Shown here: piece by piece, positions 8,954 to 64,000 of the stretch
Layout of the letters: each line of letters begins with the position of its first letter
Numbering within the stretch: the stretch's first letter is position 1
Source: Roseovarius halotolerans
GTDB taxonomy: Bacteria > Pseudomonadota > Alphaproteobacteria > Rhodobacterales > Rhodobacteraceae
NCBI RefSeq assembly: GCF_900172255.1
Contig: NZ_FWFU01000001.1
Span: 1-64,000, forward strand
Direction: 5' to 3'
Length of the DNA stretch: 64,000 nucleotides
Made by a program: the position numbers and the translations under genes
Notes under the pieces: generated by a model
Told to the model about the DNA's origin: nothing
The model's input: the letters and a program-made list of their open reading frames with translations, nothing else
The model's database searches: none

Positions 8954-9131
8954 GAACCTATCTTAGCAAGGCCCTGAGGATGCAGGGTTTTTCTAAGGCG
9001 AGGTTCTAGCGATCGGGAGGCCTCTGGTGGGACAGAGGCCGGGAATGGATCGCACCCGCCATCTCGAAAGGCCGTGCTGCTGGAGCCCGACAGCAGGTGC
9101 GGCCGGTGAGAAACGAAAGGTGACCAGACAC

Positions 9132-13271
<4,140 letters not shown>

Positions 13272-13325
13272 CGGCGGGTCCCCCCGCCGTCCCCATCCCC
13301 TCTGCCAGCCTTCAAGGATTTGAAC

Positions 13326-17570
<4,245 letters not shown>

Positions 17571-40915: not shown

Positions 40916-41028
40916 GTTTGCCATCACATATTACACTTTCATTTTGTCTCGATTCGGCATGGAAAAATTGATTGGGATGCTGCAGTATGGTCGCAACAAA
41001 AAGTAGCGACATCATATCAGGCAACAAT

Positions 41029-42201: not shown

Positions 42202-42203
42202 AA

Positions 42204-43409
42204 ATGCTGAAGAAAAATCCGAATTCGATCACCCCTGAAGATCTTTATTCGATTCAGTCGACACTTCTACAAAGCAGTGGCGAAAAGGAAGTCATCGAGT
42301 CTGTAATGGCAAATGAAGGTTGGACCATAGATGACTTGGTCTATGAGAAAAGCCGTGCGCTGACATGGAAAGGCGCAAAGCCTGCCACATTGAAGTCTTT
42401 CAAGAAGAGAGGAAAAGGAGTTCCTCTTGTTTCTTTTTTTACTGGATGCGGTGGAATGGATTTGGGATTTGAAGCAGTCGGGTTCGAGAACAAGGCGGCT
42501 TTCGAGTTCAATGAAATTTTCTGCAAAACTCTTCGCGTGAACCGCCCGAAGTGGAACATCTTTGGTCCGCCAACGCATAATGGAGATGTTTCGAAGACGA
42601 AAGAAATCGTGGAGCAACTCACTCCAATTATCTCAAAACCGTTTGATGGCGTCTTCGTGGGCGGCCCACCATGTCAGCCTTTTTCTATCGCCGCGAACCA
42701 AAGGTTTTCGAAGTCAGGAGAAAATTTCAAACGCGTTGGATTCCAGCATGCCCAGAACGGCAATCTACTCTTCGACTTCGTAGACCTTGTTGTGCATTTT
42801 AGACCTGCTGTTTTCGTCATCGAAAACGTTCCTGGTCTTCGTGATCTCGACGGTGGAAAGCAGCTCGGAGAGGCTATTCGTACGCTTCAAGCGGAAGGGT
42901 ACAATGTTGAGGAACCTGAGGTTTGGGATGCAGCAGATTACGGCATCCCGCAGTATCGGCAACGCATGTTCGTTGTTGGGGGCAGAAAGGAAGGCCTGTT
43001 CGAAATGCCTTCAAAGCGTGAACACGTCGGCTGCGGTAGTGTGTTGAATGACCTCCCAGGCGAGGATGCTTTGAACCATGAGACGCGCAATCACTATGTG
43101 CAGTCTATCAAACGGTATCGGGTCCTGGACTACGGAAAGCGAGATCAGCTCGGGCGCGTCGATCGACTAACACCAACGAGACCATCCAAGACTGTGATTG
43201 CTGGCGGAACCAACGGCGGAGGCAGATCGCATTTGCACCCGGAGATTCCGCGGACACTGAGTGTTCGTGAGTGTGCGAGACTTCAGACTTTCCCAGACAA
43301 CTACAAATTCATCGGCCCGAATGCCCGACAGTTTACCCAGGTCGGCAATGCGGTTCCACCTGTCCTTGCAGCGACGCTGGCCTCGCAGATCGCCAAAGCG
43401 TATTTCTAA
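42204..43409 (+). CDS. DNA (cytosine-5-)-methyltransferase
   Basis: This 401-aa m5C methylase has motif I (SFFTGCGGMDLGFEA), motif IV with catalytic Cys about 157 (GGPPCQPFS), motif VI (FVIENVPG), motif VIII (YRQRMFVVGG) and motif X (QVGNAVPPVLAA). It modifies cytosine C5 at an unknown site and pairs with the upstream HNH nuclease as a type II restriction-modification system. An N-terminal extension of about 70 residues precedes motif I. Base composition is clearly lower in GC than the host. Confidence 0.93.
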   Translation: MLKKNPNSITPEDLYSIQSTLLQSSGEKEVIESVMANEGWTIDDLVYEKSRALTWKGAKPATLKSFKKRGKGVPLVSFFTGCGGMDLGFEAVGFENKAAFEFNEIFCKTLRVNRPKWNIFGPPTHNGDVSKTKEIVEQLTPIISKPFDGVFVGGPPCQPFSIAANQRFSKSGENFKRVGFQHAQNGNLLFDFVDLVVHFRPAVFVIENVPGLRDLDGGKQLGEAIRTLQAEGYNVEEPEVWDAADYGIPQYRQRMFVVGGRKEGLFEMPSKREHVGCGSVLNDLPGEDALNHETRNHYVQSIKRYRVLDYGKRDQLGRVDRLTPTRPSKTVIAGGTNGGGRSHLHPEIPRTLSVRECARLQTFPDNYKFIGPNARQFTQVGNAVPPVLAATLASQIAKAYF

Positions 43410-49815: not shown

Positions 49816-50162
49816 GCAACACCGAAACCGACATCCACAATCGCATCCTGGTTGCACTTTCCCGCGAGTTCCATCCCAGGGGCATCTTTTGGCGACAGAA
49901 CGCCGGGAAAATCCGCAGCGACCGCGGAGCATGGGTCAGCCTGGGGCCGACCGGCATATCCGATATTGTCGGAGTTCTCGACGGGAGATCAGTATTCGTC
50001 GAAGTGAAGACCGCGACCGGCAAGCAGCGAAAGGCGCAGAAATCATTCCAGGTCGCGGTTGAAAAGGCCGGTGGGATTTACATCATTGCGCGGTCGCCGG
50101 AGGATGCGATCTCGCAGGTCTACCCCAGCGCTCACGACAGACTGGCGGCTTCTTCCGCCTGA
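49812..50162 (+). CDS. VRR-NUC domain nuclease
   Basis: This 116-aa protein consists of a VRR-NUC (PD-(D/E)XK) domain: ISDIVGVLDGRSVFVEVKTATGK gives the D and E-x-K residues (quoted in part), and Gln/Lys in KAQKSFQVAVEKAGG follow. Such stand-alone proteins act as Holliday-junction or flap nucleases in phages. Its 3' end overlaps the convergent small gene by 31 bp. Confidence 0.88.
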   Translation: MSNTETDIHNRILVALSREFHPRGIFWRQNAGKIRSDRGAWVSLGPTGISDIVGVLDGRSVFVEVKTATGKQRKAQKSFQVAVEKAGGIYIIARSPEDAISQVYPSAHDRLAASSA

Positions 50163-50362
50163 TCGACAACCCCAGACGCCAGCGCAATCTCTTCGACAAC
50201 ATCGCACCCGGACGCCAAATTTTTCGTCACGCGATCATAACTTATCATCTCATCGCCGTAAAACATCATGACAATCCGCCCGCCTGCATGGAGACGAATG
50301 CGATCCGGTCCGGCTTTGAATTTTGCGATCCATTTCATTCGTTCGTGTGCTGAAATCGTCAT
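50132..50362 (-). CDS. Small phage protein coupled to the sigma factor
   Basis: This 76-aa protein (MTISAHERMKWIAKFKAGPD) is of unknown function. It starts in a 4-nt overlap with the sigma gene's stop and is thus coexpressed with it; an anti-sigma or accessory role is possible but there is no motif evidence. It overlaps the VRR-NUC gene tail to tail. Confidence 0.65.
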   Translation of the reverse strand: MTISAHERMKWIAKFKAGPDRIRLHAGGRIVMMFYGDEMISYDRVTKNLASGCDVVEEIALASGVVDQAEEAASLS

Positions 50363-51144
50363 ATCAGATCTCCGAGCTCAAGGCCCTTCTGCTCAAGTTC
50401 AAACCGAATATGTCGCATCGCCTCTCTGTGAATTTGAGTGACTCGGGTCCGAGAAACATTGAATTCCTCTGCGAGCTCATCGAAAGATCGGGGCGGGTCT
50501 GTAAGTCGAGTCGAAATTACATGACGCTCGCGAGCATCAAGCCCGCTCATTGCAGACTTCAGTGCAGACAATACACGCGGCTTGTCGACTTCTTGCTCGA
50601 TCGATCCGACCGTCTTGTCTTCGAACTGCCGGAAATTCTCATCATCTTCGGAATCCTGGACATCGAAAGGAACGCAATTTCGAATAGAGAGAGCCTCTGC
50701 AGCATGGGAGGGAGTGACGCCGATATCGCGCGCCGCAAGATCCAGAGCCATAGACGGACTCCATCCCTCGGACTCATATTTCTGCTTTTTTGAAGACAGA
50801 TGAAATCGCATCTGCTTCTCTTTTCGGCTTTTCGGCACATACAGAATTGAATTCGCGCTGTGCATGTACTCGTCGAGTCGACGCACAATACGATATGAGC
50901 AAATCGCGGGTATAGAGCCGCACTCGACGTCCGGATCGAAACGCTCGAGTCCCTCAAGCATTCCAACCCGACCCTCAGACTTCAAATCACTCATTGAAAA
51001 AGGACCGTTTCTGTATTTCGAGGCGATCTTCACGACAAGACCCTCAAGGGACTCCGCAAGCTCTGCATGAGACCGCCGACATCCAGTCTCACGCCACTTT
51101 TTCCACAGCGCGAGCTGTCGCTCTTTTAGATTCGTCTTTGACAC
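50359..51144 (-). CDS. Phage-encoded sigma-70 family factor
   Basis: This 261-aa protein has sigma region 2 (FSMSDLKSEGRVGMLEGLER, FDPDVECGSIPAICSYRIVR) at about residues 30-98. A linker resembling region 3 (SMALDLAARDIGVTPSHAAE) follows, then region 4 (LDARERHVISTRL and FDELAEEFNVSRTRVTQIHR) at about 195-250. Region 1.1 is absent, and the length is like RpoH or FliA. The RpoH box is not evident. It starts with GTG at 51144, preceded by GGGGAGGTAGAA, which is part of a long inverted repeat. It probably redirects host RNA polymerase to phage promoters. Confidence 0.88.
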   Translation of the reverse strand: MSKTNLKERQLALWKKWRETGCRRSHAELAESLEGLVVKIASKYRNGPFSMSDLKSEGRVGMLEGLERFDPDVECGSIPAICSYRIVRRLDEYMHSANSILYVPKSRKEKQMRFHLSSKKQKYESEGWSPSMALDLAARDIGVTPSHAAEALSIRNCVPFDVQDSEDDENFRQFEDKTVGSIEQEVDKPRVLSALKSAMSGLDARERHVISTRLTDPPRSFDELAEEFNVSRTRVTQIHREAMRHIRFELEQKGLELGDLI

Positions 51145-51146
51145 TT

Positions 51147-51192
51147 CTACCTCCCCAAGTTCATGAATTGTTCTTGTTCACTTGGGAGGTAG
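51147..51192 (-). promoter_or_regulatory. Stem sequestering the sigma-factor ribosome binding site
   Basis: On the minus strand CTACCTCCCAAGT (end of the HNH gene, 51180-51192) pairs with ACTTGGGGAGGTAG (51147-51160) containing the Shine-Dalgarno GGGGAGG. Thirteen pairs form with one bulged base and a 19-nt loop holding the HNH stop codon. Confidence 0.7.
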
Positions 51193-51640
51193 TTCCGGTT
51201 GCATTCGGACCGAAATGACGGCCCAGTTTTTTCTCGAAGCAGCCCTTGTAGCCGTTTTTCCGCCGCTGTCTGTCTCTCTCGCACTGCTTGCAGTTGCCGC
51301 GGGTCAGTCGGACGCCGTCTCGATACCGTTTCGTCGGGAAATCCGATTCTGGAGATGCGACACCGCAGGTCGTGCAGCGTTTCCACCATGCGCCGGACGG
51401 GTCTTTCCAGTGGCCGCAGTGTTCGCGTTTGTGGTCTCCGGGGAGCAGTGCCGCCAGGTTCCATAGCTTGTTGTTCTGTCTGTTTTCGTCGCGGTGATGG
51501 ATCTGGAAGCCGTCTGGGATGGGCCCATTCGCGCACTGCCAGACATGCCTGTGCTCGCCCACAATCCGGCCGTCGGAGAGTTTCAGTTGCGGGTATCCAT
51601 CCGACCCGATCCAGCGCTCTATGACTCGATGCTTTGACAT
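51161..51640 (-). CDS. HNH (homing-type) endonuclease
   Basis: This 159-aa protein has an HNH core: IVGEHRHVWQCANGPIPDGF, then HHRDENRQNNKLWNLAAL. A downstream zinc-ribbon-like part has CTTCGVASPESDF and NCKQCERDRQRRK. Free-standing HNH genes of this size are common phage homing endonucleases. It lies between a terminator and the sigma gene, and its stop is inside the stem that hides the sigma gene's ribosome binding site. No good Shine-Dalgarno is seen before ATG 51640. Confidence 0.88.
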   Translation of the reverse strand: MSKHRVIERWIGSDGYPQLKLSDGRIVGEHRHVWQCANGPIPDGFQIHHRDENRQNNKLWNLAALLPGDHKREHCGHWKDPSGAWWKRCTTCGVASPESDFPTKRYRDGVRLTRGNCKQCERDRQRRKNGYKGCFEKKLGRHFGPNATGTTSQVNKNNS

Positions 51641-51674
51641 ACATGGGAGGTCGCGCCCGGGTCAGGATCTCGCA

Positions 51675-51704
51675 CAAAAAAAAGACCCCGGCGCTGGGCC
51701 GGGG
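51675..51704 (-). terminator. Terminator of the D5-helicase operon
   Basis: Minus strand stem CCCCGGC/GCCGGGG (51698-51704 and 51686-51692) is followed by TC and an eight-T run (complement of 51675-51683 region). Confidence 0.9.
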
Positions 51705-51750
51705 CAAGTTCAACAGGTTCGCCAGGGTTACCCGCCTGGCCGGGATTTGT

Positions 51751-54027
51751 TCAGGACTTTCCTCCTGAAATCAGGTTCATAGGGTGGTCGAGGTCGTGAG
51801 CGTTCGGTCGCTTGCCGTCCAGATATGCTTTTCCGTGTGCATTCAGAGCGATCCCGCGGCGGATTACCGTTCCTCCTGGTTTCTCGCGCTTGAGCTTTTT
51901 CTCATCGAGGATCGCACCGAATGCTTTTGTGCTGACAGGATTGCCGGCGGCGTTGTGGTCGAGATACGCGCAGTAGGCTTTGTAGAGATTGCCGTGAGCG
52001 CAGAATGTCTTTGAGTTGATCTCGCAGCACTGCTCGAAGAAATCGCCGGTGGGGTCTGTCTCGACCTGGTAGCGATTGATGCGATCGGAGACCGCCGCAG
52101 GTTCCTCTCCGAGGCTCTGCTCGGCATACCACTCTACGGCGCCGCGAACGGCCCACGCAAGGATGCCGGCACGTTCAGACCGCAGCCTGTTCTTGACGCC
52201 GATGTCTTTCGGCTTGGAGACGCCCGCGACATAGTTCTTGTCGCCGGGATTGGCGTAGCTGTTGGGAAAGTTGATGACTTTCACCCGGCGCCAGATCGCG
52301 TCGCCTTGGCTATGAATGTTCGGCAGGTCATTGGTGTCCATTACGATCTTACCGACGGGGAGGAAGGAAATCATGCTCTGATATTTCTTTGCGGCGGTCA
52401 CGGTGCCCTGGCCGCTGAAATGCTTAAGCCGGGCTTCATCAAGGACGTCGCTCGGGTCGCCCTCGGATGCGTGAATGAGACGGGCGCCGCGAAGATTTGC
52501 AAGAACTTCATCGGTGCCGCCGTTGTTGAATGATCCGCGCTGCTTCATGAGATAGTCCTTCGAGATCGTGGTCACATAGTCGCCAAGGATCTCTTCAAAT
52601 GTCAGCGTCAGGACGCCCTTACCGTTCGACCCGGTGCCGTCGAGAAAAAGGAACTTCTGCTCATCTGTCTCGCCGGTCAGGATGTAGCCCATCCATCGCT
52701 GGATGTAGCGGATCGTGTCGGCGTCGCCGTTGAAAATGTCGTTGAGGAAGGACAGCCATTCCGGGCATTCGGCTTTCTGGTCGTAATGCGTCTTGCAGGT
52801 CTTCGATATCATCAGCTCCTGCGACGGTGCTACCAATTCACCGGTGCGGAGATTGACGGCGCCGTTGCGGACCCCGAGCATCGCATTATCGGCGTCGAGA
52901 TCATTTGCGGAGGCTTGCATATGTGACCGGGCGAGCTTCGAGATCGCCGCGATACTCTTCTGGCTCTGGCTCGTTTTCGCCCACCCCGCCAGCTCTTCGA
53001 CAGAAAAGCGCACGGCCTCTGGATCCTCGACACGGCCATCGCCGCGCTTGTCACCCTCGCGCATGACCTGAGCCTCTTTCTTGCTCATGGGCAGATACTT
53101 GACGAGATCTGGAGCATACTGATGCAGAACGCGGGCGGTCGTGAGGTCGCGGGCGACAGAACGGGCCGTTTCCTGTGCGACGCGATCGAGTGATCCGCCC
53201 TGCGGGTCGGCGAGCCAGCGGACGCCAGTCCATGCCATCACGCCCACACCATCCACATCGAGAACCTTGTCGCCATACTTCACAAGCATCCGCTCAGCAT
53301 TGCCAAGGTCGGTGCGCTCTGCGTCGAGCAGGCACCAGATGTCGGCGGCGGTGATGCCCTCGGCAGCAGAAGCCAGACCCGCGAAAACGCGGTCATCGTG
53401 CGCGGCGCGGTCTTCCTCGATATCGCTCACGACCTCATGGCTTGCCTGCGCCTTCTTCGATGCGAGAACATCGGCCTGATCCACCCACCGATGTTTCACA
53501 GACTTCTCTCCGAGACCTTCCGTCAGTTCTTCAAACTCACGATCGGACATAAGCGCCACTTGCTCAAAAGAGGTAATCCCGGCATTGCGCAGGGTCTTCT
53601 CGACCGCGCCCGTGATGCCGCCGATGTCGGTCAGCTTGTCGTTGTCCTGATCTTCTTCCGGCTCACCCGGATCCACCTCTTCCGGCGCCATAGCCGCAGC
53701 CGCATCTACGGCAGCCTTGCGCCAGCCGCCTGTCTTAGCACGCTTCGACAGCCCTTTCTTCACGCCGTCCAGCGCATCGTCGGTTGCCTCGGACAGGTCA
53801 TGGAAGGTGCGAATGCCTGCAGCCTTGAGCTTATCGTCGAGGGCTGGTCCGATACCCTTGAGGGCGGTCAGGTCGTCTTCATCTTCTGGATCGTCTGCGC
53901 ACTGCTCTTCATTGCCGTCGGGCGCAGGAGCCTCGGCGCCACCGCCGACGGCCTGCTCGCGGATATTCTGCGCCACTTCTTCATAGCGGGCGACACGGGT
54001 GCGGAGGATTTTGATGTGCTTACGCAT
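51751..54027 (-). CDS. D5-type replicative helicase (P4-primase C-terminal family) with HhH domains
   Basis: This 758-aa protein has a C-terminal SF3/D5 helicase: D5N-like region, Walker A FLDGTGSNGKGVL at about residue 465, IHASEGDPSD, and sensor region IVMDTNDLPNI. The N-terminal 190 residues hold two helix-hairpin-helix-like repeats (LTALKGIGPALDDKLKAAGI and LTDIGGITGAVEKTLRNAGI) in acidic linkers. No DnaG or archaeo-eukaryotic primase motif is recognised. It should unwind the phage origin. The upstream small gene and dyad region support a replication module. Confidence 0.85.
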   Translation of the reverse strand: MRKHIKILRTRVARYEEVAQNIREQAVGGGAEAPAPDGNEEQCADDPEDEDDLTALKGIGPALDDKLKAAGIRTFHDLSEATDDALDGVKKGLSKRAKTGGWRKAAVDAAAAMAPEEVDPGEPEEDQDNDKLTDIGGITGAVEKTLRNAGITSFEQVALMSDREFEELTEGLGEKSVKHRWVDQADVLASKKAQASHEVVSDIEEDRAAHDDRVFAGLASAAEGITAADIWCLLDAERTDLGNAERMLVKYGDKVLDVDGVGVMAWTGVRWLADPQGGSLDRVAQETARSVARDLTTARVLHQYAPDLVKYLPMSKKEAQVMREGDKRGDGRVEDPEAVRFSVEELAGWAKTSQSQKSIAAISKLARSHMQASANDLDADNAMLGVRNGAVNLRTGELVAPSQELMISKTCKTHYDQKAECPEWLSFLNDIFNGDADTIRYIQRWMGYILTGETDEQKFLFLDGTGSNGKGVLTLTFEEILGDYVTTISKDYLMKQRGSFNNGGTDEVLANLRGARLIHASEGDPSDVLDEARLKHFSGQGTVTAAKKYQSMISFLPVGKIVMDTNDLPNIHSQGDAIWRRVKVINFPNSYANPGDKNYVAGVSKPKDIGVKNRLRSERAGILAWAVRGAVEWYAEQSLGEEPAAVSDRINRYQVETDPTGDFFEQCCEINSKTFCAHGNLYKAYCAYLDHNAAGNPVSTKAFGAILDEKKLKREKPGGTVIRRGIALNAHGKAYLDGKRPNAHDLDHPMNLISGGKS

Positions 54028-54096
54028 TTTGAATACCTGTTGTGATAGTGTTTTTGATTGCTGCTCGAAGCAGGTAGTGACGAAGATGGGGCCCGT

Positions 54097-54393
54097 TCAA
54101 ACGGATCGGACGAAAATCGCGCCGTTTCCGTCGCAGTGCTCAAGAATGCAGAATGCATGCGGCTTTACGAACGACGGAAGACTTGGGATATCGGTCCCGG
54201 CCACGACATGTGTCACTCCAGAAACGCGCACGAGGGCGATGCGCTGGCCCTCGAGGGTCTTACCGACTGAGCGTCGAGCAATCGAATGGCGCTTGGCATA
54301 AGTTCCTTCTGCATCAGCCAGGGCGGACTTGTAAGCGATCTGGGTCGTTGTTCCGAGGTAGCTTGGCTTCTTCATCGTCTTGGTCATGTTCAT
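54097..54393 (-). CDS. Small phage protein upstream of the replicative helicase
   Basis: This 98-aa basic protein (MNMTKTMKKPSYLGTTTQIA) is of unknown function. It is 69 nt upstream of the helicase gene in the same direction and next to the dyad region. A short Cys-containing C-terminal half (FCILEHCDGNGAIFVRSV) is seen. Confidence 0.6.
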   Translation of the reverse strand: MNMTKTMKKPSYLGTTTQIAYKSALADAEGTYAKRHSIARRSVGKTLEGQRIALVRVSGVTHVVAGTDIPSLPSFVKPHAFCILEHCDGNGAIFVRSV

Positions 54394-54425
54394 GCTCCGT
54401 TCTCATCTGGATTGGAAATTGTTCC

Positions 54426-54751
54426 TATGACGATCTGAACCAAGCGAGAAAACTAACTTTCTTACAAGCATTTGAAAAACAGACATAAAAACAGGGCGTC
54501 TATGACGATATGACGATTGACGGTTTTCCCAGAGAGGTCTCCATGAGGTGTGTGTGTAATTAACTTTTCGGGGTATATGATATTATCGTAATTCCTCCCG
54601 CGTACGCGGGGGAAATAAAGGCATATCATACTAAAACTTAATTCTTGCTATGCTTCATGGGAAGGTCTCTGGAAAAACACCGGATCGTCATATCGTCATA
54701 GCTGATTGCGAAAAGTTGCCGATTTTCCAGGGACTTCCGGCGTATGACGAT
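54426..54751. repeat. Six TATGACGAT boxes (iteron-like)
   Basis: Plus-strand copies lie at 54426-54434, 54501-54509, 54509-54517 and 54743-54751; minus-strand copies at 54684-54692 and 54692-54700. Two pairs overlap by one base. They surround and form the ends of the 202-bp dyad. Confidence 0.85.
54500..54701. repeat. 202-bp nested dyad, candidate replication origin or operator
   Basis: Perfect 18-bp outer arms CTATGACGATATGACGAT (54500-54517) and ATCGTCATATCGTCATAG (54684-54701) are centred at 54600.5. Many inner positions also pair on the same axis: TTTT-CCAGAGA (54524-54535 with 54666-54677), CCATGA (54541-54546 with 54655-54660), and TAATTAACTTTT (54557-54568 with 54633-54644). A central palindrome CCCGCGTACGCGGG lies at 54597-54610. 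The flanks are AT-rich. Confidence 0.8.
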
Positions 54752-54842
54752 TTTCCCGATCGTAATGGATCGTCTTGGATTTCGCTTCTGATCCACTGAA
54801 AAGGCCAATCTCCCTCCTGAACAGGAAAGGGAGCAAGGTCAG

Positions 54843-55184
54843 ATGAAAGACATACAGACAGCAGTATCGCGCAACCTTGCGTTGGTCGCGGCATATCTCG
54901 ACGTTCGATTTGAGTATGCTGCGCCGGTTGTTGTTATGACGAACGCCCAGCCTCACAGACTATCAGACGCATATCTCGCGACGCTCATGGTGGATTATTG
55001 CGACAAGGTGCGGTTCTCGGGACCAGTCGTGAAAGAAGCGGCGCGTTGCTTATACCGCTTGGGGTATCGTGTCAGGTTCTTCGAAGGAGAACCAGCGCGA
55101 GATCTTCTTGTCGGTCGTGCGCGCGATCTTTCTGCGCATGAGCGGCTGGAGGCCATCGCGCATTTTGCGCGCGCACGTTGCTGA
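54843..55184 (+). CDS. Phage hypothetical protein
   Basis: This 113-aa protein (MKDIQTAVSRNLALVAAYLD) has mixed helix and strand. The context next to the candidate origin is the only clue. AAGGGAGCAAGG precedes the ATG. Its TGA abuts the stop of the convergent gene with no gap. Confidence 0.65.
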   Translation: MKDIQTAVSRNLALVAAYLDVRFEYAAPVVVMTNAQPHRLSDAYLATLMVDYCDKVRFSGPVVKEAARCLYRLGYRVRFFEGEPARDLLVGRARDLSAHERLEAIAHFARARC

Positions 55185-55700
55185 CTATCGCTCGCAGACC
55201 TCGGCCGCTTGCCAGGTTGCTTCCACTTCAACAACGCCTAAAGCCGATGCTTTCGCGCGGATTGTCTGTGGTCGAGCGCGCATGGTGCAGAGGCCGTCGA
55301 TGGCGGCTTGCATGGCCTCTACAATTTTATCTTGGATGTCTTCGGCGGAGTAATAAGCAAGCATCGAGGATTGACTGAACTCGCCGTTGATAAACGGTGG
55401 CGCGAACTCGATTGGCGGGCCGCCGTCACGTGGGACCGCAAGATATATCGTCACCCCAGGCGCCGGGTTACGCGTATACAGTGAGAACTCGTCGGCGCCA
55501 GACAGGCTTGCAGAGGCTTCGTCGGCTGACCAGCCTTGGCTCGACAAGATGTCGACGATCTCGCCCTCAGACATCACGCCCTCGACGTTCCAGGTTCGAC
55601 TTTCGATACCCTGCTCAATCGCGTGAATGATCTCTTGAGCTGGGGCGGCCGCAAATGATGCCGCAAGCATTGCGACTGCCAGGGAAAATGTCTTGAGCAT
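55185..55700 (-). CDS. Secreted protein of unknown function
   Basis: This 171-aa protein has a clear signal peptide (MLKTFSLAVAMLAASFAAAPAQ) with cleavage after APA or AQ. The mature part is acidic and has two Cys (GLCTM, EVCER) that could form a disulfide. It is the only exported protein in this part of the prophage and is read against its neighbours, like a lysogenic conversion (moron) gene. GAGGTATCTTC precedes the start. Confidence 0.75.
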   Translation of the reverse strand: MLKTFSLAVAMLAASFAAAPAQEIIHAIEQGIESRTWNVEGVMSEGEIVDILSSQGWSADEASASLSGADEFSLYTRNPAPGVTIYLAVPRDGGPPIEFAPPFINGEFSQSSMLAYYSAEDIQDKIVEAMQAAIDGLCTMRARPQTIRAKASALGVVEVEATWQAAEVCER

Positions 55701-55824
55701 GAAGATACCTCTCGTTCACGCGAGGAGGCTATCAGGTTTTTCCATTTTTTCGAGTGTGTCGTTTTGGCGGCCATCTTCCGGGGCGTAAATCCCTTAGAGA
55801 AACAGACAAACACGGGAGAGTGTT

Positions 55825-56394
55825 ATGAAAGATATGGTGAAACTGAAGCGGGCGGATCTTGAGCAGGTCTTGCGTGATGCGTTGCGTCTTGGGGCGCAGG
55901 GACACGGCGTCAAGCATAAGCGCCTGGTCCAGGGATTAATGGAAGAGGCCGATGGGAAGGCAATCCCGATGAATGAGATGGAACGCGAGCGTGGCGAGAT
56001 CTTCGAGTCCGCAGTCGAGCGCCGCATTTGCTCTCGCATTGGACTTCCACATTGGATCGTGACCGGCGATGTGTCCGGCATCTCAGATCGCGTCGCGCGT
56101 CATAGCATCAAGCTGGCGCGGAAAAATGTGAACTCTATATTTGACCGGGCAGAGAGGCAGCTCAAGCCAATTGGAGAGCGCGCCGAAGAGGAGGTCAGCT
56201 GCGGCGACGATGACTGCTGTCCGAGTTTGCCGGCGGATATCATTGCCATGACTGAGGCTTCACGCCGATCTCATCTTCTTGATAAAATCACCGGACTGCC
56301 AGGCTTTTGTGATTATGAAGAGGAGGGTCTGGATCGCCTTCACTCACTCACAACCGCCCAGCTCGAGCAAGTCATCCGCCTCGCCAAGCCCTGA
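55825..56394 (+). CDS. Phage hypothetical protein
   Basis: This 189-aa largely helical protein (MKDMVKLKRADLEQVLRDAL) has a CGDDDCCP motif near residue 130, which could bind metal. GGGAGAG upstream supports the start. It is followed by a strong terminator, so it is the last rightward gene before the late operon. Function unknown. Confidence 0.68.
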   Translation: MKDMVKLKRADLEQVLRDALRLGAQGHGVKHKRLVQGLMEEADGKAIPMNEMERERGEIFESAVERRICSRIGLPHWIVTGDVSGISDRVARHSIKLARKNVNSIFDRAERQLKPIGERAEEEVSCGDDDCCPSLPADIIAMTEASRRSHLLDKITGLPGFCDYEEEGLDRLHSLTTAQLEQVIRLAKP

Positions 56395-56402
56395 CCCACA
56401 GA

Positions 56403-56431
56403 CCCCGGCCACCGCGCCGGGGTTTTTCTTT
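56403..56431 (+). terminator. Terminator before the late operon
   Basis: Stem CCCCGGC (56403-56409) / GCCGGGG (56416-56422) is followed by TTTTTCTTT. Late transcription must therefore restart downstream. Confidence 0.92.
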
Positions 56432-56434
56432 GAC

Positions 56435-56461
56435 CGAACCGCGCATTTAGGACCGATATTC
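56435..56461 (+). promoter_or_regulatory. Candidate phage late promoter P1
   Basis: CGAACCGCGCATTT followed by AGGACCGATATTC, 27 bp. It shares CGAAC and GGACCGATATTC at identical spacing with P2 (59220) and P3 (61171). It sits 4 bp after a terminator and upstream of the terminase genes. Confidence 0.65.
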
Positions 56462-56634
56462 AACACAGTAAGCCCCTGGGGACCCTGGACCCCCGGGGTG
56501 TTGTTATGCAGGGGGGCGAGTGGCCGTTATTTTCCTCTGTGAACAAATTTTAGAAACGCGTTTCGGTTCGCATTGACGGCAATCCGCAAACCAATGGCAA
56601 GCAAATAACCCAATGAAAGCAAGGCTTAGGCAAG

Positions 56635-57222
56635 GTGTCATCTAAAGACGAAGAAGCGACGAAACCGAAGCTCCTCTGGGGCACGCAGGACATGGCTGCG
56701 TTTCTCGGTGTGAGCGATCGTCGCCTGCAGCAACTTGTCGATGAGGGCGTTGCGGTTCGTGAAGCCAGGGGGAAATACAATGCCCTTGAAACGATCTCTA
56801 ACTACCTGGCGCTTATGCGAGATGGTGGTGGCGGAGAGGTGGTCGATGACAAGGCCGCGCTTGTAAAAGAGCAAAGGCGCTGGACAAAGATCCGGGCCGA
56901 CAAGGATGCCGCTGCCCTGGCTATTCTGCACGGCGAGATCGTGATGATCGAAGACGCCTGTGCTCTTCTGGCTGAAGAGGCCGGATCCGTTCGGGCGGCG
57001 CTCGAGGGCGAAGAGAACCAGCTTGTCGACAAGTTTTCCGGAAGGATACTTGAGCCCGCAGAAGTTGCCATCGAATTGAGAGCGTCGCGCGAGAGAGCGT
57101 TCAAGCACGTCACACTCGACACGGATAATCCGCGTCGCCCGGTCACGAAAGAAGTTCCGCAAGAGTTCCTCAATGACGATACAGACATCGAGCACCCAGT
57201 TCCGGGAGGCGATGCGGAATAA
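56635..57222 (+). CDS. Terminase small subunit
   Basis: This 195-aa protein has an N-terminal helix-turn-helix of the Nu1/gp1 type (TQDMAAFLGVSDRRLQQLVD), a long helical middle, and an acidic C-terminal tail. It recognises phage DNA for packaging. It starts with GTG (MSSKDEEATKPKLLW) after AAGG. It overlaps the large subunit by 11 nt. Confidence 0.85.
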   Translation: MSSKDEEATKPKLLWGTQDMAAFLGVSDRRLQQLVDEGVAVREARGKYNALETISNYLALMRDGGGGEVVDDKAALVKEQRRWTKIRADKDAAALAILHGEIVMIEDACALLAEEAGSVRAALEGEENQLVDKFSGRILEPAEVAIELRASRERAFKHVTLDTDNPRRPVTKEVPQEFLNDDTDIEHPVPGGDAE

Positions 57223-59215
57223 CGCCCGAGGTAGGTTCCGCGACGTCACCAGGAAGCTTTTCGCCGCTCCCCTGCAGATGACAGGGAGCGAGTATGCCGA
57301 CGAATTCGGCGTGCTTATTGATGGCGGCAAGGTGCAAAAGTGGAGGACATACCCTCTCCAGAAAGAGATACTCGACGCGTTCGCTGACACGACGATTCCA
57401 GAGGTTGCGGTGATGAAGTCGGCGCGGATGGGGATCTCCGAATGCTTGAACCACGAGGTCCAGCGCCGCATTCATATTGAGCCGTGCGCGATCGGCATGT
57501 ATCGCCCGAAGGAGGCGGACGCTGAGCGCTATATGGAGAAGCGCTTCGATCCAAGGTCGCGTGCCGTTCCTGAGGTCAAGGAGCTTCTGTTCCTGTCATC
57601 TTCTGGCAAGAGGAAAGAAAAACGGACCGAGCGCGCATTCAGGAACGGCGCCTCGCTAATGGTTCTCGGTGCCGAGTCCGAAGATAACTTTCGGGATCAC
57701 ACGCTCAAGTTTATTGCGTTGGACGAACTCGACGCCTTGGGATTCGCGCCCACGAAAGGCGGCGGCAACAAGTACGACATGGCACGCCGCCGTGGATATC
57801 AGTTCTGGGACTCGAAGGTTGTTGCGATCTCGACTCCGAAGGCGCCGGCAGAGGAGGGCGGTCGGATCCATGCTCTATTCCTCGAGAGCGATCAGCGGCA
57901 CTACTATGTCCCGTGTCCACATTGTGGCCATGAGTTCACGCCGGTCTGGGGAGATGCCGAAAATCCTGGCGGAATGAAATGGGATGACGCTGATCCCACG
58001 AAAGTTTGGTATGAGTGCCCCGAGAATGGCTGCGTGATCGAGCACCACGATAAGAAGGGAATGGTGGAGCGCGGCCGATGGGTCCCTCACAAGCCTGAGG
58101 TCAAGAGTCGTCGCGGATACTACCTGAACCAGATCATCTCCTTTGCTCCAAAAGCATCCTGGCAAGCGATGGTGGCGGAGTGGTTGGAGGCGTGCCGAAC
58201 AGGCGCGGCGCAGATCCAGTCTTTCAAGAACGAGGTTCTGGGACTTCCATTCAGCACCGCCGCCGCCACAGAGACCGCAGACGAAGAGACCCTCTATCAA
58301 GCGGTGACGGACCTTGGCGATGCCGAGGTTCCGGCATGGGCGAAGGCCTTGGTGTGGGGTGTCGACCGGCAGAAGGGCGGCGCCGATTGGAGCGAGTCAT
58401 ATCTCGAAGCTGCGCTATGGGCTTTTGGTCCTGGTCGCCGGCCCTTTCAGGTTGGGCATTGGGTGCTCGATGAGTTTCCGCAGACCGATAGACGATGCTG
58501 GGATGAGCTTGAGAGACTTGCAACCAGGACGTTCATTGACACGAATGGAAGGCCGCGCAAAGCGGACGGCTTGGGCATCGACCATAACGGTGGGCTTACC
58601 CAGACCGTGAACGACTGGGTGCGGCGTATGCGCAAGATCCCCGGCCGGAAGTATTGGTTTGCTTTGAATGGCGAGTCGAAGGGAAACGGTAAGCGCGGGA
58701 AATCCATCTGGCCCCGCACCTCATCGAAGCGCGGGGAGTTCCTCTACACTGTCGATGTTGACCTGGCTAAGGACGAGATTGCGGAGTGGTTGTCGTCCGG
58801 TTTTATCGAGTTCAATTCCAACTCGATCGAGGGTTCTGTCTGTCTTTCTGATGCGGATGAGTTGGAGCGTTTCGTGAAACGAATGCTCTCAGAAAAGCGG
58901 TATCCCGTCCCTGGCGGCGGGACGAAATGGGTGGGTCCGAAAGGAAGGGGCCGCGATGGCAATGAGCCTTTCGATTGCTTCGTGTATGCAACGATCTTGA
59001 CATACGCGATGGAAAACCTCCCAGGCGGGCTTCGCTGGCGCCGGGCATTTGCTCCAGACAATCGCCTTCCTTCTTCCCCTGATCAGGAAGATGCGTCCCT
59101 CTCAGAACGTGCTGCAGCTACGGCGCCGCGTGAGCAATCTGAGACTGCGTCCACTCAAGAGCCAGCCAAGACGACAGCTCCTAAGCCGGGGCTCATAAGA
59201 ATCAGCAGGTTCTAA
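57212..59215 (+). CDS. Terminase large subunit (GpA family)
   Basis: This 667-aa packaging motor has a Walker A-like VMKSARMGISE and Walker B KFIALDELDAL. A zinc-type CPHCGHEF...CPENGC segment follows, then a C-terminal nuclease part (WGVDRQKGG, LGIDHNGG, NEPFDCFVYA). It translocates DNA into the prohead and cuts cos ends in lambda. The ATG at 57212 has GGGAGG 6 nt upstream and lies inside the small-subunit 3' end; 57173 lacks such a site. Confidence 0.95.
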   Translation: MRNNARGRFRDVTRKLFAAPLQMTGSEYADEFGVLIDGGKVQKWRTYPLQKEILDAFADTTIPEVAVMKSARMGISECLNHEVQRRIHIEPCAIGMYRPKEADAERYMEKRFDPRSRAVPEVKELLFLSSSGKRKEKRTERAFRNGASLMVLGAESEDNFRDHTLKFIALDELDALGFAPTKGGGNKYDMARRRGYQFWDSKVVAISTPKAPAEEGGRIHALFLESDQRHYYVPCPHCGHEFTPVWGDAENPGGMKWDDADPTKVWYECPENGCVIEHHDKKGMVERGRWVPHKPEVKSRRGYYLNQIISFAPKASWQAMVAEWLEACRTGAAQIQSFKNEVLGLPFSTAAATETADEETLYQAVTDLGDAEVPAWAKALVWGVDRQKGGADWSESYLEAALWAFGPGRRPFQVGHWVLDEFPQTDRRCWDELERLATRTFIDTNGRPRKADGLGIDHNGGLTQTVNDWVRRMRKIPGRKYWFALNGESKGNGKRGKSIWPRTSSKRGEFLYTVDVDLAKDEIAEWLSSGFIEFNSNSIEGSVCLSDADELERFVKRMLSEKRYPVPGGGTKWVGPKGRGRDGNEPFDCFVYATILTYAMENLPGGLRWRRAFAPDNRLPSSPDQEDASLSERAAATAPREQSETASTQEPAKTTAPKPGLIRISRF

Positions 59216-59219
59216 CGAA

Positions 59220-59246
59220 CGAACAGCCAGGGCGGGACCGATATTC
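59220..59246 (+). promoter_or_regulatory. Candidate phage late promoter P2
   Basis: CGAACAGCCAGGGC followed by GGGACCGATATTC, 27 bp, between the large terminase and the gpW gene. The preceding bases give CGAACGAAC, as also at P3. Confidence 0.62.
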
Positions 59247-59273
59247 CAAGAGAACCCAAGGAGTATCCCGCCC

Positions 59274-59531
59274 GTGGCTGTCTACGATTCCCAGAGCTTC
59301 ACCCTCGAAGACTTGCGCGCAATGCGGAAGCGCATCCTGGAGCAGCGTGCTAAGGGTGTCTCGTCCTGGTCCTACAACGGGCAGTCTTTCACATACAGCT
59401 CGCCCGACGCGATGATGCGTGTTGCCGACGAGATCACTCGAGAGATCCGTCACCGCATGGCCGACGATCTTGGACTCCAACCAGTGGATTTGAATGGGCC
59501 GATTATCACGCGGCCCCTGGCAGGAAGTTGA
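59274..59531 (+). CDS. gpW-like head-tail joining protein
   Basis: This 85-aa protein (MAVYDSQSFTLEDLRAMRKR) matches the size and pattern of lambda gpW, including a beta-hairpin with SWSYNGQSFTYSS. gpW closes the portal after packaging and builds the tail connector. It starts with GTG at 59274 after AAGGAG. Portal follows 1 nt later. Confidence 0.8.
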   Translation: MAVYDSQSFTLEDLRAMRKRILEQRAKGVSSWSYNGQSFTYSSPDAMMRVADEITREIRHRMADDLGLQPVDLNGPIITRPLAGS

Positions 59532-59532
59532 C

Positions 59533-61152
59533 ATGAAAGAAGCAATCTCTGAGGCCGCACCGACGGAAACCAAGCGCGCCCCGGGCGTGCGTCAGAATGT
59601 GTCTTATATTCCGGCCGTTCACAACGCGGCGGATCTCGTGCGCGAGGCGCGCATGGATTACAGCTTTGGGGAAATCCTTCGAGATCGAAACGATATTCCG
59701 ACAGGATCGGGCGAGGCTATCGTCTCCGCACTGACACGTGCCCATCCGCAGATCACGCGCATGGTTCGATACGCCACGCGGATGAACGGTCTGGCTGCGC
59801 GTCCTGGCGATGTCACGGCTACAATGGTCATCGGCAAAGGGATGGCGCCGGCGTGCCAGGATGAGAAACTCATGCGACTCTACAATCGCTGGGCAAAGCG
59901 GTGTGGGGCTGAAGGTCTCGGCGATATGCGTTTCGTCCAGGAGCTTGCCTGGCGCGAGTATTTCAACGTCGGTGAGTGCTTCGTTTACATGAGGCGCCGT
60001 CGCCAAAGCGGTGGCCAGGATCTTCCTGTTGGCCTTCAGCTTCAAGTTATGCCGACAGAAATGGTGCCTACTGAGCTGCCTTTCCTGACCGGCGACAACA
60101 TCCGCGCCGGTCAAGTCCTGAGCAATCTCCGCGAGACAACCGCCTACTATGTCTACAAGCATCACCCGGGCGACAGATCGAACCTGGTGGCAGCATCCGC
60201 GAAAGAGGTGGTTCGCGTTTCATCGAGACTGATCCTGCATGTCATGCGTCAGCGCGAAGCTGGCGCACTGCGCGGTGAAAGCGCACTTGCCCGGTCCTTG
60301 GTCGATATTCACGATTTCAAGAAATACCTGAATGCTGAGATGGTCAGGAAGATCCTTTCGGCGAACATCGCGTATTGGGTGGAGCTTCCAGATCTCACAG
60401 AGGAGGAGAAGGAGCGTCTCGCAGACGTATTCTTCGATCCTTCGAGCGGAAAATACGTCGACAGCGACGGCAATGAGGTCGAGCCTCCGAAGAAGAACAC
60501 CGTAGAGGCACCCAAAGAGGGGTCTGTTGCGTCGCTACCGCCGGGCGCCAAGATCAACATGACTGCGCCGGCGGAGTCGGGAAACAGCTTTAGCCCTTTC
60601 CTGCGTCAGATTGCTCTGCAGCTCTCCGCGTCTCTCAACATCCCCGTCGAGTATCTCCTGCTCGACATGGCGGGCGTCCAGGACCGGATCTACAAGGGCA
60701 TCAGTCAGCAGTTCGAGCGTCAGGTTGAAATGTGGCGCGCAGACTTCGCGGCCATGTTCCTCAATCCGGTTTGGAATGCGTTCGTCAAACTTGCGGTGGA
60801 AGAGGGCAAGTGGACGCCACCTGAAGGCACGACATTGGAGGATTGGCTCGATGTCGATTGGGTCGGTCAACCGTTCCCCAATCTTCACCGCGCACAGGAG
60901 GTCTCCTCCTGGCAGGAGGAGGTCGAGGCGGGCTTCTGCACACGCTCCGACATTATCCGCCGACAAGGCGATGACCCCGAACGCGTCCGGAAAGAGCGTC
61001 TCGCAGATCTCGTGTCGGATATCCGTGCGGGTTTGTCCGAGCCTCCAATGCATTGGACGGACGAAGATGTCGCCGAGAATGTTGGATGGGATCAAGCCAA
61101 AATCGACGCCTGGCGAAAACGCAGCCGTCCGACAGTCTCAGCTACCCGATAA
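59533..61152 (+). CDS. Portal protein (lambda gpB family)
   Basis: This 539-aa protein is a lambda-type portal: the N-terminal MDYSFGEILRDRNDIPTGSG, a middle LQVMPTEMVPTELP, and the conserved IPVEYLLLDMAGVQDRIYKG core. Twelve copies form the DNA channel at one capsid vertex. The ATG at 59533 has AGGAAG upstream. Confidence 0.93.
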   Translation: MKEAISEAAPTETKRAPGVRQNVSYIPAVHNAADLVREARMDYSFGEILRDRNDIPTGSGEAIVSALTRAHPQITRMVRYATRMNGLAARPGDVTATMVIGKGMAPACQDEKLMRLYNRWAKRCGAEGLGDMRFVQELAWREYFNVGECFVYMRRRRQSGGQDLPVGLQLQVMPTEMVPTELPFLTGDNIRAGQVLSNLRETTAYYVYKHHPGDRSNLVAASAKEVVRVSSRLILHVMRQREAGALRGESALARSLVDIHDFKKYLNAEMVRKILSANIAYWVELPDLTEEEKERLADVFFDPSSGKYVDSDGNEVEPPKKNTVEAPKEGSVASLPPGAKINMTAPAESGNSFSPFLRQIALQLSASLNIPVEYLLLDMAGVQDRIYKGISQQFERQVEMWRADFAAMFLNPVWNAFVKLAVEEGKWTPPEGTTLEDWLDVDWVGQPFPNLHRAQEVSSWQEEVEAGFCTRSDIIRRQGDDPERVRKERLADLVSDIRAGLSEPPMHWTDEDVAENVGWDQAKIDAWRKRSRPTVSATR

Positions 61153-61170
61153 AATCGAAGATTAATCGAA

Positions 61171-61197
61171 CGAACCGCCAATGCGGGACCGATATTC
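61171..61197 (+). promoter_or_regulatory. Candidate phage late promoter P3
   Basis: CGAACCGCCAATGC followed by GGGACCGATATTC, 27 bp, ending 20 bp before the protease ATG. It differs from P2 mainly in the variable centre. Confidence 0.63.
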
Positions 61198-61217
61198 CCC
61201 ACAGAAAGGATTTACTG

Positions 61218-62231
61218 ATGGCTAAAGAGATCACAACTCCGGATCCCGTCGCGCTCTACGCAACTCAAGCAGTGCGCAGGGTTGGCTCCGTCGTTGCAGA
61301 CATGAGCGAGGATATCCCGACTATCCGGATCTCTGGTCCGATGTATTCCGACATGCAGGGCTCTTCGAGAGACTTCATGGAAGCTCATGACAGTCTGAAA
61401 TCGCTTGGCGCAAAAGAAGCTCGCCTGGAGATCAACTCCGGCGGCGGATCCATCACTGAGGGCATTGCGATCTACGATGCAATCGCTGCCTCGGACATTG
61501 AGTTCGACTGCTTCATCTTCGGGATCTGCGCCAGCGCCGCCACTCTTCCCGCGATGTCTTGCCGGTCGATCACTATCGCAAAGAACGCCAGACTTATGAT
61601 CCACGAGGCTCGCTCTGGATCATACGGAACCGCTGACGATCTCGAAGAGGTCGCGGCTTGGCTGCGTCGGATGAACGACACTGCGATCGCCGCATATGTC
61701 GCACGCACCGGGCGCACGGAAGAGGATATCCGAGCCTTGGCAAAAGAAGAGACCTGGTATCACAGCGGCCAGGATGCCGTAGATGCAGGCTTCGCCGATC
61801 GGGTTCTCGATGTCGAGGCCGTCGCAGAGGTCTCCGAGGCCGAGCTCCGCGCGTTCGACAACGCCCCGGAAGATCTTCGTGAGGCGGTGGTTGCTGCCGA
61901 TGAGGGTGCTTCGGACGCCGATACTCAGGACGATACCGTTTCTGATGATGAAGGAGCCGGAGGCGATGATACTTCCGCTTCGGAGGTGAACGCGGACGAT
62001 GACGCAAATGGCGACGCTCCTGAAGGCGAAGGCAGCACCGCCCCCGATGCAGATGCAAACGCAAACGAGAACAACGGCGATCCCCTGATCGCCGACATGA
62101 ATGCCGACTCTGGAGAGGAGTCGGTTGTGACTGCCCGCCCAGCCGAGCCGGCGCAGTCTCAAGATGCGAAAGGCCCGTCCCCCTGGGGGCAGCGGATCGC
62201 CGAAATGAACGCCGGATTCGGCAAATTCTAA
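61218..62231 (+). CDS. ClpP-like head maturation protease with acidic scaffold-like tail
   Basis: This 337-aa protein has residues about 1-215 forming a ClpP/S49-type serine protease: INSGGGSITEGIAIYDAI, catalytic Ser in FGICASAATLPAM and His in ARLMIHEARSGS. The last 120 residues are low-complexity, rich in Asp, Glu, Ala and Asn, ending WGQRIAEMNAGFGKF. In lambda, gpC carries the scaffold Nu3 as its C-terminus, so this tail probably serves as internal scaffold. AAAGGA precedes ATG 61218. Confidence 0.88.
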   Translation: MAKEITTPDPVALYATQAVRRVGSVVADMSEDIPTIRISGPMYSDMQGSSRDFMEAHDSLKSLGAKEARLEINSGGGSITEGIAIYDAIAASDIEFDCFIFGICASAATLPAMSCRSITIAKNARLMIHEARSGSYGTADDLEEVAAWLRRMNDTAIAAYVARTGRTEEDIRALAKEETWYHSGQDAVDAGFADRVLDVEAVAEVSEAELRAFDNAPEDLREAVVAADEGASDADTQDDTVSDDEGAGGDDTSASEVNADDDANGDAPEGEGSTAPDADANANENNGDPLIADMNADSGEESVVTARPAEPAQSQDAKGPSPWGQRIAEMNAGFGKF

Positions 62232-62242
62232 GAGGATAAGAT

Positions 62243-63241
62243 ATGTTCAACGCTGACGACTGGACCCTCCAGACACTGACTGCGGGCGTCAACAAGACCC
62301 CCTTCGTCGAAACCACCCTTTCGCGGTTCTTCCGCACGGGTCGCCTTCGCACGACCACGGCAATGATCGAGCGCGGCTCGACCGGTCTCGAGCTGATCGA
62401 CCCGGTTGCCCGCGGCACTGTCCCGGCCGCAACCTCGAACGCCGGTCTTTCCCGCGCCCAGTTCACGATCTCCAGCGTCAAGCTGGCTGATGTTGTGAAC
62501 ATCACCGCAGACAAGGTCCAGGACCTTCGTGCGTTTGGTGAAGAAGACATCGCCGAGACTTACCAGACCGTTCTCGACCAAGAGACCGGGACTGTTCGCC
62601 GTTGGATCGAAAACACGCACGAGAACCTCCGCTTCGGCACCGTAAAGGGTGTTCAGTATGCAAAGGATGGCGTGACCGAGATCTTCAACTTCTACACAGC
62701 CGCCGGTGTTGCTGCTCCTGCTGATGTGGACATCAACTTCTCGACCGCCTCGCGGGCCGAGTTGATGGATTTCTACGCCGACCATGAAGACCACGTTCGC
62801 ACGGGTCTTGGTGCTGATGCAGATGCTGCCCAGGCCGTGATGTATATCTACGGCAAGCGCGCATGGCGCCGCTTCCGCACCTCCGATCCGGTTGCTGAGC
62901 TCTATGAGCGCTACCAGGACGGTTCCGTGAACCGCGAAGGCGCTCTTGGCCAGCGTCGGCCCTTCGAGCTCTTCGATGCGATGCACATGCCCTACTACGG
63001 CGCGAGCATCGGTGAAGACGAATGGCGTGCTGTTCCTGTCGGTGTTCCGAACCTGTTCAAGACGGACTTCACTCCGCTCGACAACCCGGAGACGGCAAAC
63101 ACCCTCGGCGTTCCGCTCTACGCGACGCCAGAACGCGCTGAGTTCGGCAAGGGCTACAAGGTCGAACTGGCCTCTCTGCCCATCCACTATGTCACGCGCC
63201 CTGAGTGCTTGATCGGTGGGTCGAACATCGAGCCGGTCTAA
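62243..63241 (+). CDS. Major capsid protein (lambda gpE family)
   Basis: This 332-aa protein (MFNADDWTLQTLTAGVNKTP) matches phage major capsid protein E: TPFVETTLSRFFRTGRLRTT near the N-terminus, DQETGTVRRWIENTHENLRF in the middle, and LASLPIHYVTRPECLIGGSN at the end. It forms the icosahedral shell. No separate decoration protein (gpD) gene lies upstream. A terminator follows. Confidence 0.95.
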   Translation: MFNADDWTLQTLTAGVNKTPFVETTLSRFFRTGRLRTTTAMIERGSTGLELIDPVARGTVPAATSNAGLSRAQFTISSVKLADVVNITADKVQDLRAFGEEDIAETYQTVLDQETGTVRRWIENTHENLRFGTVKGVQYAKDGVTEIFNFYTAAGVAAPADVDINFSTASRAELMDFYADHEDHVRTGLGADADAAQAVMYIYGKRAWRRFRTSDPVAELYERYQDGSVNREGALGQRRPFELFDAMHMPYYGASIGEDEWRAVPVGVPNLFKTDFTPLDNPETANTLGVPLYATPERAEFGKGYKVELASLPIHYVTRPECLIGGSNIEPV

Positions 63242-63267
63242 GGCCCGACCCTTGACCCCGCCAACAG

Positions 63268-63300
63268 CCCCGCCCCATCACCGGGGCGGGGTTTTTCTTT
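63268..63300 (+). terminator. Terminator after the capsid gene
   Basis: A 9-bp stem CCCCGCCCC (63268-63276) / GGGGCGGGG (63283-63291) is followed by TTTTTCTTT. It may limit transcription of downstream tail genes relative to capsid. Confidence 0.92.
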
Positions 63301-63310
63301 GGAGCCCTGG

Positions 63311-63883
63311 ATGACCATCGCTGAAGACTTTCTCGACGCCATGTGCCCCGTTTCCGCGACATACTCGCGGGGCGTGGATACGGCCGATCTGCGCGTCGCA
63401 ATCCAGGAATCCGACAAGGCATTTCGTACCAGCCGGCGTGACCAGCTCATCGCGTCGGATTGCTCAGGCGTCATCCTGAAAAACGCCTTGGTGCGCCGCG
63501 GTGGCCGCCTGACGCTGACGGATGGCACGGAATACCGCATCGACCGGGTGATGAATAGCGGCGTGCCTGGCCTGTCAGACCTCGCCCTGGTGCGCCTGAA
63601 CGGCGTCGCCATGCCGGTCTATGACGCGAGCCAGGAAATCCCGCTTGATGCAACGGTGACGCTCGATGGGGTCGAGATCCCCGCGCATGTGAACCCGTCC
63701 GTGGAGGTCGAAGAGATCGGCGATGACGGCAGCCGTGTGGTCGTATCCAGGATCATGGTCGCCATCCGCGCCACAGATGCTACAGGCGCGAAGCCAGGAT
63801 CTGTGGTTGTTGTCGACGGCGAGGCCAGGCGCGCCGCCAGGGTGATGAACGACGGCCTGGGAATGGTGAAGGTGCTGGTATGA
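63311..63883 (+). CDS. Phage head-tail region protein of unknown function
   Basis: This 190-aa protein (MTIAEDFLDAMCPVSATYSR) is rich in beta strands. The location after capsid suggests a head-tail connector or tail-attachment role, but I recognise no motif. GGAG at 63301-63304 supports ATG 63311. It overlaps the next gene by 4 nt. Confidence 0.7.
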   Translation: MTIAEDFLDAMCPVSATYSRGVDTADLRVAIQESDKAFRTSRRDQLIASDCSGVILKNALVRRGGRLTLTDGTEYRIDRVMNSGVPGLSDLALVRLNGVAMPVYDASQEIPLDATVTLDGVEIPAHVNPSVEVEEIGDDGSRVVVSRIMVAIRATDATGAKPGSVVVVDGEARRAARVMNDGLGMVKVLV

Positions 63884-64000
63884 GTTTGAAGGGGTGGGAT
63901 CCGAACATCTTCGTGAAAGACTATGAGCGCGACTTGCTCAATGCGCGCAAGCGTGCCGGCCGAAAAGTCGGACGAAAGATTGCGACAAAGGCCAAGCGCG
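63880..64000 (+). CDS. Phage protein, 5' end only (possible minor tail protein)
   Basis: Forty codons are visible (MSLKGWDPNIFVKDYERDLL, then a basic helix NARKRAGRKVGRKIATKAKR) before the window ends. The start overlaps the upstream stop (ATGA). The position fits the gpZ-like tail-completion protein of lambda-like phages, which is inference. Confidence 0.6.
   Translation, partial: MSLKGWDPNIFVKDYERDLLNARKRAGRKVGRKIATKAKR

Follow-up and report, generated by a model that had tools for sequence, protein, structure and literature searches.

Short repeated sites ahead of late genes in a prophage of Roseovarius halotolerans (phage A) are probably late promoters at which host RNA polymerase acts together with a sigma factor that the phage itself encodes. 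That they are promoters of some kind is very likely. Sites of the same design were found in four related phages (B, C, D and E), giving 26 sites (A 6, B 7, C 5, D 4 and E 4), all of which lie on the late-gene strand. The window, that is, the whole stretch of DNA that was analysed, comprises the first 64,000 nucleotides of contig NZ_FWFU01000001.1 and contains three of the six sites of phage A.

At these three places, 56435–56461, 59220–59246 and 61171–61197, the sequence-only reading had noted CGAAC and GGACCGATATTC at a constant distance. The claimed spacing, CGAAC-N10-GGACCGATATTC, holds exactly at all three, and none of 100 shuffled windows gave three matches when up to three mismatches were permitted. 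The sites are intergenic, as had been claimed, and lie on the plus strand 5' of the genes for the terminase small subunit (terS, 56635–57222, followed by the large subunit at 57173–59215), the head-tail adaptor (59274–59531, followed by the portal protein at 59494–61152) and the Clp-type head maturation protease (61218–62231, followed by the major capsid protein at 62243–63241). A cos-like stretch separates site 1 from terS.

In late promoter 1, the −10-like box GGACCGATATTC occupies 56450–56461 (−17 to −6), the predicted start is the A at 56467, and the upstream, −35-like element TGACCG covers 56431–56436 (−36 to −31). Promoter 2, 5' of the head-tail adaptor gene, has its box at 59235–59246, a predicted start at the G at 59252 and the upstream element CGAACG at 59216–59221. 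Promoter 3, 5' of the protease and capsid genes, has its box at 61186–61197, a predicted start at the A at 61203 and CGAACG again at 61167–61172. The boxes of promoters 2 and 3 have counterparts in all four other phages.

An intrinsic terminator on the plus strand (56400–56431; −18.9 kcal/mol, with 0 of 200 shuffles as stable) stands directly 5' of promoter 1, and its T run overlaps the first base of the promoter 1 upstream element. A strong terminator directly upstream of site 1 had been claimed and is there; its end at about 56431 leaves three bases before CGAAC, rather than the four proposed. Folding points to a second strong plus-strand terminator 3' of the capsid gene, at 63266–63298. Immediately after box 1, the conserved non-coding stretch 56462–56530 (plus strand; about 60 bp) is near-identical in phages A and B, and pieces resembling it, recognised by eye, stand 5' of terS in C and E. 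This cos-like stretch is probably the cos site of the phage.

Exact copies of GGACCGATATTC number seven in the 3.7-Mb host genome, and six of them lie in the late region of the prophage, all on the plus strand. Three start in the window (56450, 59235 and 61186) and three further along the contig (65484, 71941 and 74553), where the predicted starts are 65501, 71958 and 74570. The seventh is found on another contig, within an opposite-strand ORF that we take, by eye, to encode aspartyl-tRNA synthetase, and it has neither C at −32, G at −31 nor the purine. At four of the six prophage sites CGAAC also stands, or stands instead, 14 bases 5' of the box.

The related phages were reached by several routes. 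Phage B, a 36,922-bp contig probably from Roseovarius sp. A-2, carries seven exact boxes on one strand; it was first reached by scanning IMG/VR with the N14 pattern, which yielded A itself and B, and the sigma and TerL searches reach it too. Phage C, a prophage of Tabrizicola soli, came from a terminase search of reference genomes and contains GGACCGATATCC five times; one further GGACCGATATCC occurs in the T. soli genome outside the prophage. Phage D came from a terminase search of the family and has three copies of CGACCGATATTC and one of TGACCGATATTC. Phage E was found by a portal scan of viral contigs, and the first box pattern fails there. Its boxes are GGACTGATATCT, present three times in the repeat listing, and GGACAGATATAT, present once and matched by a pattern drawn from the repeats; this pattern was composed only after the repeats had been seen. 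The box of E is altered, yet it stands at unchanged gene boundaries.

The TerL scan of viral contigs retained the best 80 of 556 confirmed matches. Genomes of the family (394), the order (390) and the genus (84), in overlapping draws, were searched for TerL at E <= 1e-120, and the 394 family genomes also for the portal at E <= 1e-90; between them these searches yielded A, B and D and no other phage of this kind. A sigma scan gave 53 loci; among the 52 besides A, only that of B had any of eight other phage proteins. Sigma matches in two genomes, G031 (31% identity) and G013 (24%), were accompanied by no GGACCGATATTC in the stretches taken, and the G031 protein is 82–88% identical to three other RpoH-like matches of its genus.

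We aligned the sites on the −10-like box alone, using the 22 plus-strand matches to GACCGATAT[CT]C in A to D plus the four sites of E, and numbered as +1 the sixth base after the 12-mer, which places the box at −17 to −6 and the upstream element at −36 to −31. Position −32 is C at 26 of 26 sites and −31 is G at 25 of 26, counts that overstate the independent evidence because sites at matching gene boundaries share descent and the 26 are not independent events. At +1 a purine was found at every site (22 A and 4 G). This position first stood out in A and B (12 A, 1 G), and all 13 sites from the other three phages then conformed to it (10 A, 3 G). In 5000 jittered controls, which do not preserve descent, the best column outside the box reached at most 20 of 26. 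An order-3 Markov model predicted 0.057, 0.033, 0.008 and 0.026 matches per strand in A, B, C and D, against the 6, 7, 5 and 4 observed; together with the shuffles, this rules out a chance origin of the sites. Taken together, the fixed box, the C and G at −32 and −31 and the purine at +1 amount to the geometry of a promoter.

On the opposite strand there was one match in A and none in B, C, D or E. This minus-strand match, GGACCGATATCC at 54186–54197, lies about 160 bp 5' of the primase, HNH and sigma genes of phage A; it shares the C at −32, yet its −31 base is A and its +1 base is C. It was left out of the counts; adding it would give C at −32 in 27 of 27, G at −31 in 25 of 27 and a purine in 26 of 27. 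The site is possibly a weak feedback promoter or a product of chance; as a candidate for autoregulation of the sigma genes it is a poor fit to the promoter pattern.

The 27-bp unit with CGAAC ten bases from the box did not survive as the conserved form. It fits just four of the 26 sites in the five phages (three in A, one in B) and was rejected as a functional unit. CGAAC at a distance of 14 bases fits seven (four in A, three in B), and two sites fit both spacings. What is general in the original CGAAC is its first two letters, the CG at −32/−31. A56450 (56435–56461) and B30409 (L039:10410–10421) have CGAAC at N10 and none at N14; at both, the CG is retained and the remainder of CGAAC lies four bases further 3'. 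The upstream element varies among the phages: A and B have CGAACG (seven of 13 sites), C has CGTGCG (four of five), D has TGACCG (three of four) and E has TGCCCG or CGCCCG.

The placement of the sites follows gene boundaries. Sites 5' of the adaptor, protease and major tail genes are present in all five phages. A site 5' of terS and the cos-like stretch is present in A, B and E (the same box in B, a variant box in E), whereas no box that fits the pattern precedes terS in C or D. A, B, C and D each have a site 5' of the endolysin gene, which the E sequence examined does not reach; the endolysin was identified by direct matches in A, C and D, and in B as the homologue of that of A. B and C have a site 5' of the helicase gene, and A has no exact box 5' of its helicase. 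Sites 71941 of A and 27677 of B, which lie within the end of a conserved tail-region gene, are less sure.

At 19 of the 26 sites the predicted leader measures 13–29 nt (for three of them by eye, the mechanical ORF start lying further upstream), and at the other seven it measures 0, 5, 104, 104, 131, 156 and 168 nt. The promoter reading is thus strongly supported by a fixed −10-like box, the upstream CG, a fixed purine and start codons 13–29 nt behind it at most sites. In phage B (L038:5380–5397) the predicted +1 falls on the A of the helicase ATG, and the helicase message is possibly leaderless.

The window also encodes the candidate reader of these sites. The product of 50359–51144 (minus strand; 261 aa) had been assigned to the sigma-70 family, and Pfam regions 2 and 4 were both matched above cut-off. 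Its nearest models are those of RpoH. All five phages with sites have a gene of the sigma-70 superfamily: against TIGR02937 (NCBIfam; cut-off 42.9 bits) the proteins scored 63.7 (A), 90.6 (B), 61.8 (C), 66.2 (D) and 60.9 (E). Both Pfam regions exceeded cut-off in A, B and E; in C, region 4 did so and region 2 reached 18.3 bits, below the required 24; the D protein matched region 2 together with an ECF model and gave no match to region 4 as such. Sigma-32 was the best NCBIfam model for A, B and E, RpoS for C and an ECF or superfamily model for D. None passed the RpoH equivalog TIGR02392 (cut-off 323.1 bits), the scores being 100.3, 114.3, 44.4, 26.5 and 58.7 for A to E. The best PDB sequence match of the A protein was RpoH (8hkc_E). 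Its structure model had a mean pLDDT of 78 and a pTM of 0.43, and the best Foldseek matches included E. coli sigma-32 (E 1.2e-8) with TM-scores of about 0.35; overall confidence in the model is low, and its domain arrangement is provisional.

The sigma proteins of A, B, C and E measure 255–268 aa, and their genes lie on the strand opposite the late genes. Adjacent to the sigma gene are HNH and primase genes in A and B, and in C a gene of a helicase family; in A, the HNH endonuclease gene (51161–51640) stands 5' of it and a D5-type primase gene (51751–54027) is on the same minus strand. Phage D has a shorter protein of 186 aa and a two-domain type, encoded on the late strand, among late genes and directly 5' of the endolysin gene; no second sigma was found in the D sequence examined. 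In an unrooted tree, the sigmas of A, C and E stood apart from other viral sigmas and from those RpoH-like proteins that we labelled chromosomal ourselves, with B in between (supports 89–93).

The boxes are better conserved than the sigmas, and change in one is not matched by change in the other. The boxes of A and B are identical although their sigmas share only about 25% identity, A and E have different boxes with sigmas 36% identical, and D has an almost unchanged box and a non-orthologous type of sigma. It is conceivable, if less likely than not, that within a single lineage of temperate phages the late −10 box stayed nearly fixed while the sigmas reading it drifted apart to about 25% identity, D having exchanged its sigma for a non-orthologous one of two domains that reads almost the same box.

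Sigma genes and boxes also occurred together in a wider set of 83 TerL-related loci, in which C and B had both a sigma match and boxes. The other 81, more distant relatives, had no sigma match, and none had two boxes on one strand; since 32 of these loci are under 10 kb and 49 are at least 10 kb, including 23 of at least 20 kb, many could hide a sigma gene. A lone GACCGATAT[CT]C was present in three of the 81. One distant TerL relative, IMGVR_UViG_3300010052_000153 (L062), has three copies of ACCGATAT on one strand and no sigma match in the stretch examined.

From this co-occurrence we infer that the sites depend on the phage sigma. The link is drawn from four observations: a sigma gene in five of five phages, neither a sigma match nor a repeated box in the more distant loci, no housekeeping-type promoter scored at the three window sites and no RpoH-type TTG. 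The claim of a sigma-dependent late switch is supported, strongly in its promoter component, for which the 26 sites of the five phages speak, and by inference in its sigma component.

An alternative that we consider unlikely is that a host sigma (RpoH, the housekeeping factor or another) reads the late promoters, maybe with a phage activator, and that the phage sigma does something else. Conservation of the −10 box despite non-conserved phage sigmas would suit such an arrangement, as would the different type of sigma in phage D. Among known systems, RpoH (sigma-32) is one of the closest: its −10 element, CCCCATNT, resembles the late box, and sigma-32 models are the best match of three of the phage proteins. 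All the phage sigmas fall far under the equivalog cut-offs, and the best model for C is RpoS. Promoters of RpoHI and RpoHII in R. sphaeroides have a conserved TTG at −36 to −34 that is important for activity (PMC3441632). At −35 our 26 sites carry either G (21) or A (5), so this TTG is absent from all of them, which disfavours host RpoH as the reader.

Nor do the three window sites look like host housekeeping promoters, in agreement with the sequence-only reading. A scan for TTGACA-like and TATAAT-like hexamers 16–18 nt apart gave four matches in 50000–64000, against 4.9 in shuffles, and none scored at the three window sites. Within the host's own genome the N14 form, with one mismatch permitted, occurred solely at four prophage sites, which also argues against a host sigma. 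Family-wide, the same search matched 12 of 394 genomes, namely this one, with its four exact sites, and 11 others with one-mismatch matches at 12 places; backwards-read controls gave scattered single matches likewise. Finally, the ORFs of A with matches in B, C and D included no identified regulator besides the sigma, which speaks against a shared phage activator, many of these ORFs being without assigned function; gp55825 of A had a match in B only.

Far less probable is that the sites are operators of the stoperator kind, at which a repressor bound in the lysogen blocks transcription. Stoperators are short, repeated, asymmetric, mostly intergenic and set in one orientation, a form that our sites share, but the fixed purine at +1, the fixed upstream CG and the 13–29 nt leaders at 19 of 26 sites suit a promoter better. 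Least probable of all is a box acting in RNA or in packaging, for example in antitermination or terminase binding: site 1 does lie directly 5' of the cos-like stretch, but sites also occur far from cos, the box would be outside the transcript if the starts are as predicted, and the fold of 56462–56545 is unremarkable, 48 of 200 shuffles being as stable.

We therefore return to late promoters read with the phage sigma, for which sequence comparison suggests the following course, with transcription starts, operon structure and timing all as predicted. Induction would lead to transcription of the leftward genes, including those for primase, HNH protein and sigma. The phage sigma would then associate with the RNA polymerase of the host and guide it to some six promoters across the rightward late region, ahead of terS/cos, the adaptor, the protease and capsid genes, the major tail protein, a later tail-region gene and the endolysin (an amidase). 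Each promoter would consist of an upstream element with CG at −32/−31, the extended −10 box GGACCGATATTC, five bases and a start purine.

Phage late sigmas are already known, and so is a sigma-like control factor in a defective prophage. T4 and SPO1 are lytic phages, and T4 late promoters have no −35 element and require the sliding clamp. In contrast, phage A looks temperate (it has an integrase-like gene, recognised by eye) and its sites have an upstream element. The likeness lies in a phage-encoded sigma that would act on late genes with host polymerase, as T4 gp55 and SPO1 gp34 do (PMC9429907). Xpf of the defective prophage PBSX of B. subtilis is described as a positive control factor that resembles a sigma and contains sigma2 and sigma4 (PMC10141391). 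The sigma of D is similar to Xpf in size, whereas those of A, B, C and E are longer.

Late control in temperate phages is usually framed as Q-type antitermination or as the work of activators. The TerL and portal relatives of phage A include proteins annotated as lambda-like, and the comparison with lambda Q concerns late-gene control in a temperate phage in both cases; lambda uses one promoter and read-through, whereas phage A has several promoter-like sites instead of a single late promoter. In searches of the open-licence literature we recognised no report of these phages, nor of a set of such late promoters in any temperate lambda-like phage from this family of bacteria.

Two further features of the window were observed. 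Near the left prophage end, at 40972–43409, a protein with a weak HNH/restriction match is followed by a C5 cytosine methyltransferase, possibly forming a restriction-modification pair. Very long overlapping ORFs occupy both strands at 9006–17420, among them a minus-strand ORF of 2804 aa without a Pfam match.

If the proposed control is correct, a lambda-like temperate lineage uses its own sigma and a clear set of promoters for its virion and lysis genes. Four of the five known members were found in genomes of Tabrizicola, of Roseovarius or of the family to which the window belongs. The predictions for start sites, regulon and sigma are precise to the base, and the five natural pairs of sigma and promoter would offer a view on how the two change jointly, or fail to do so.
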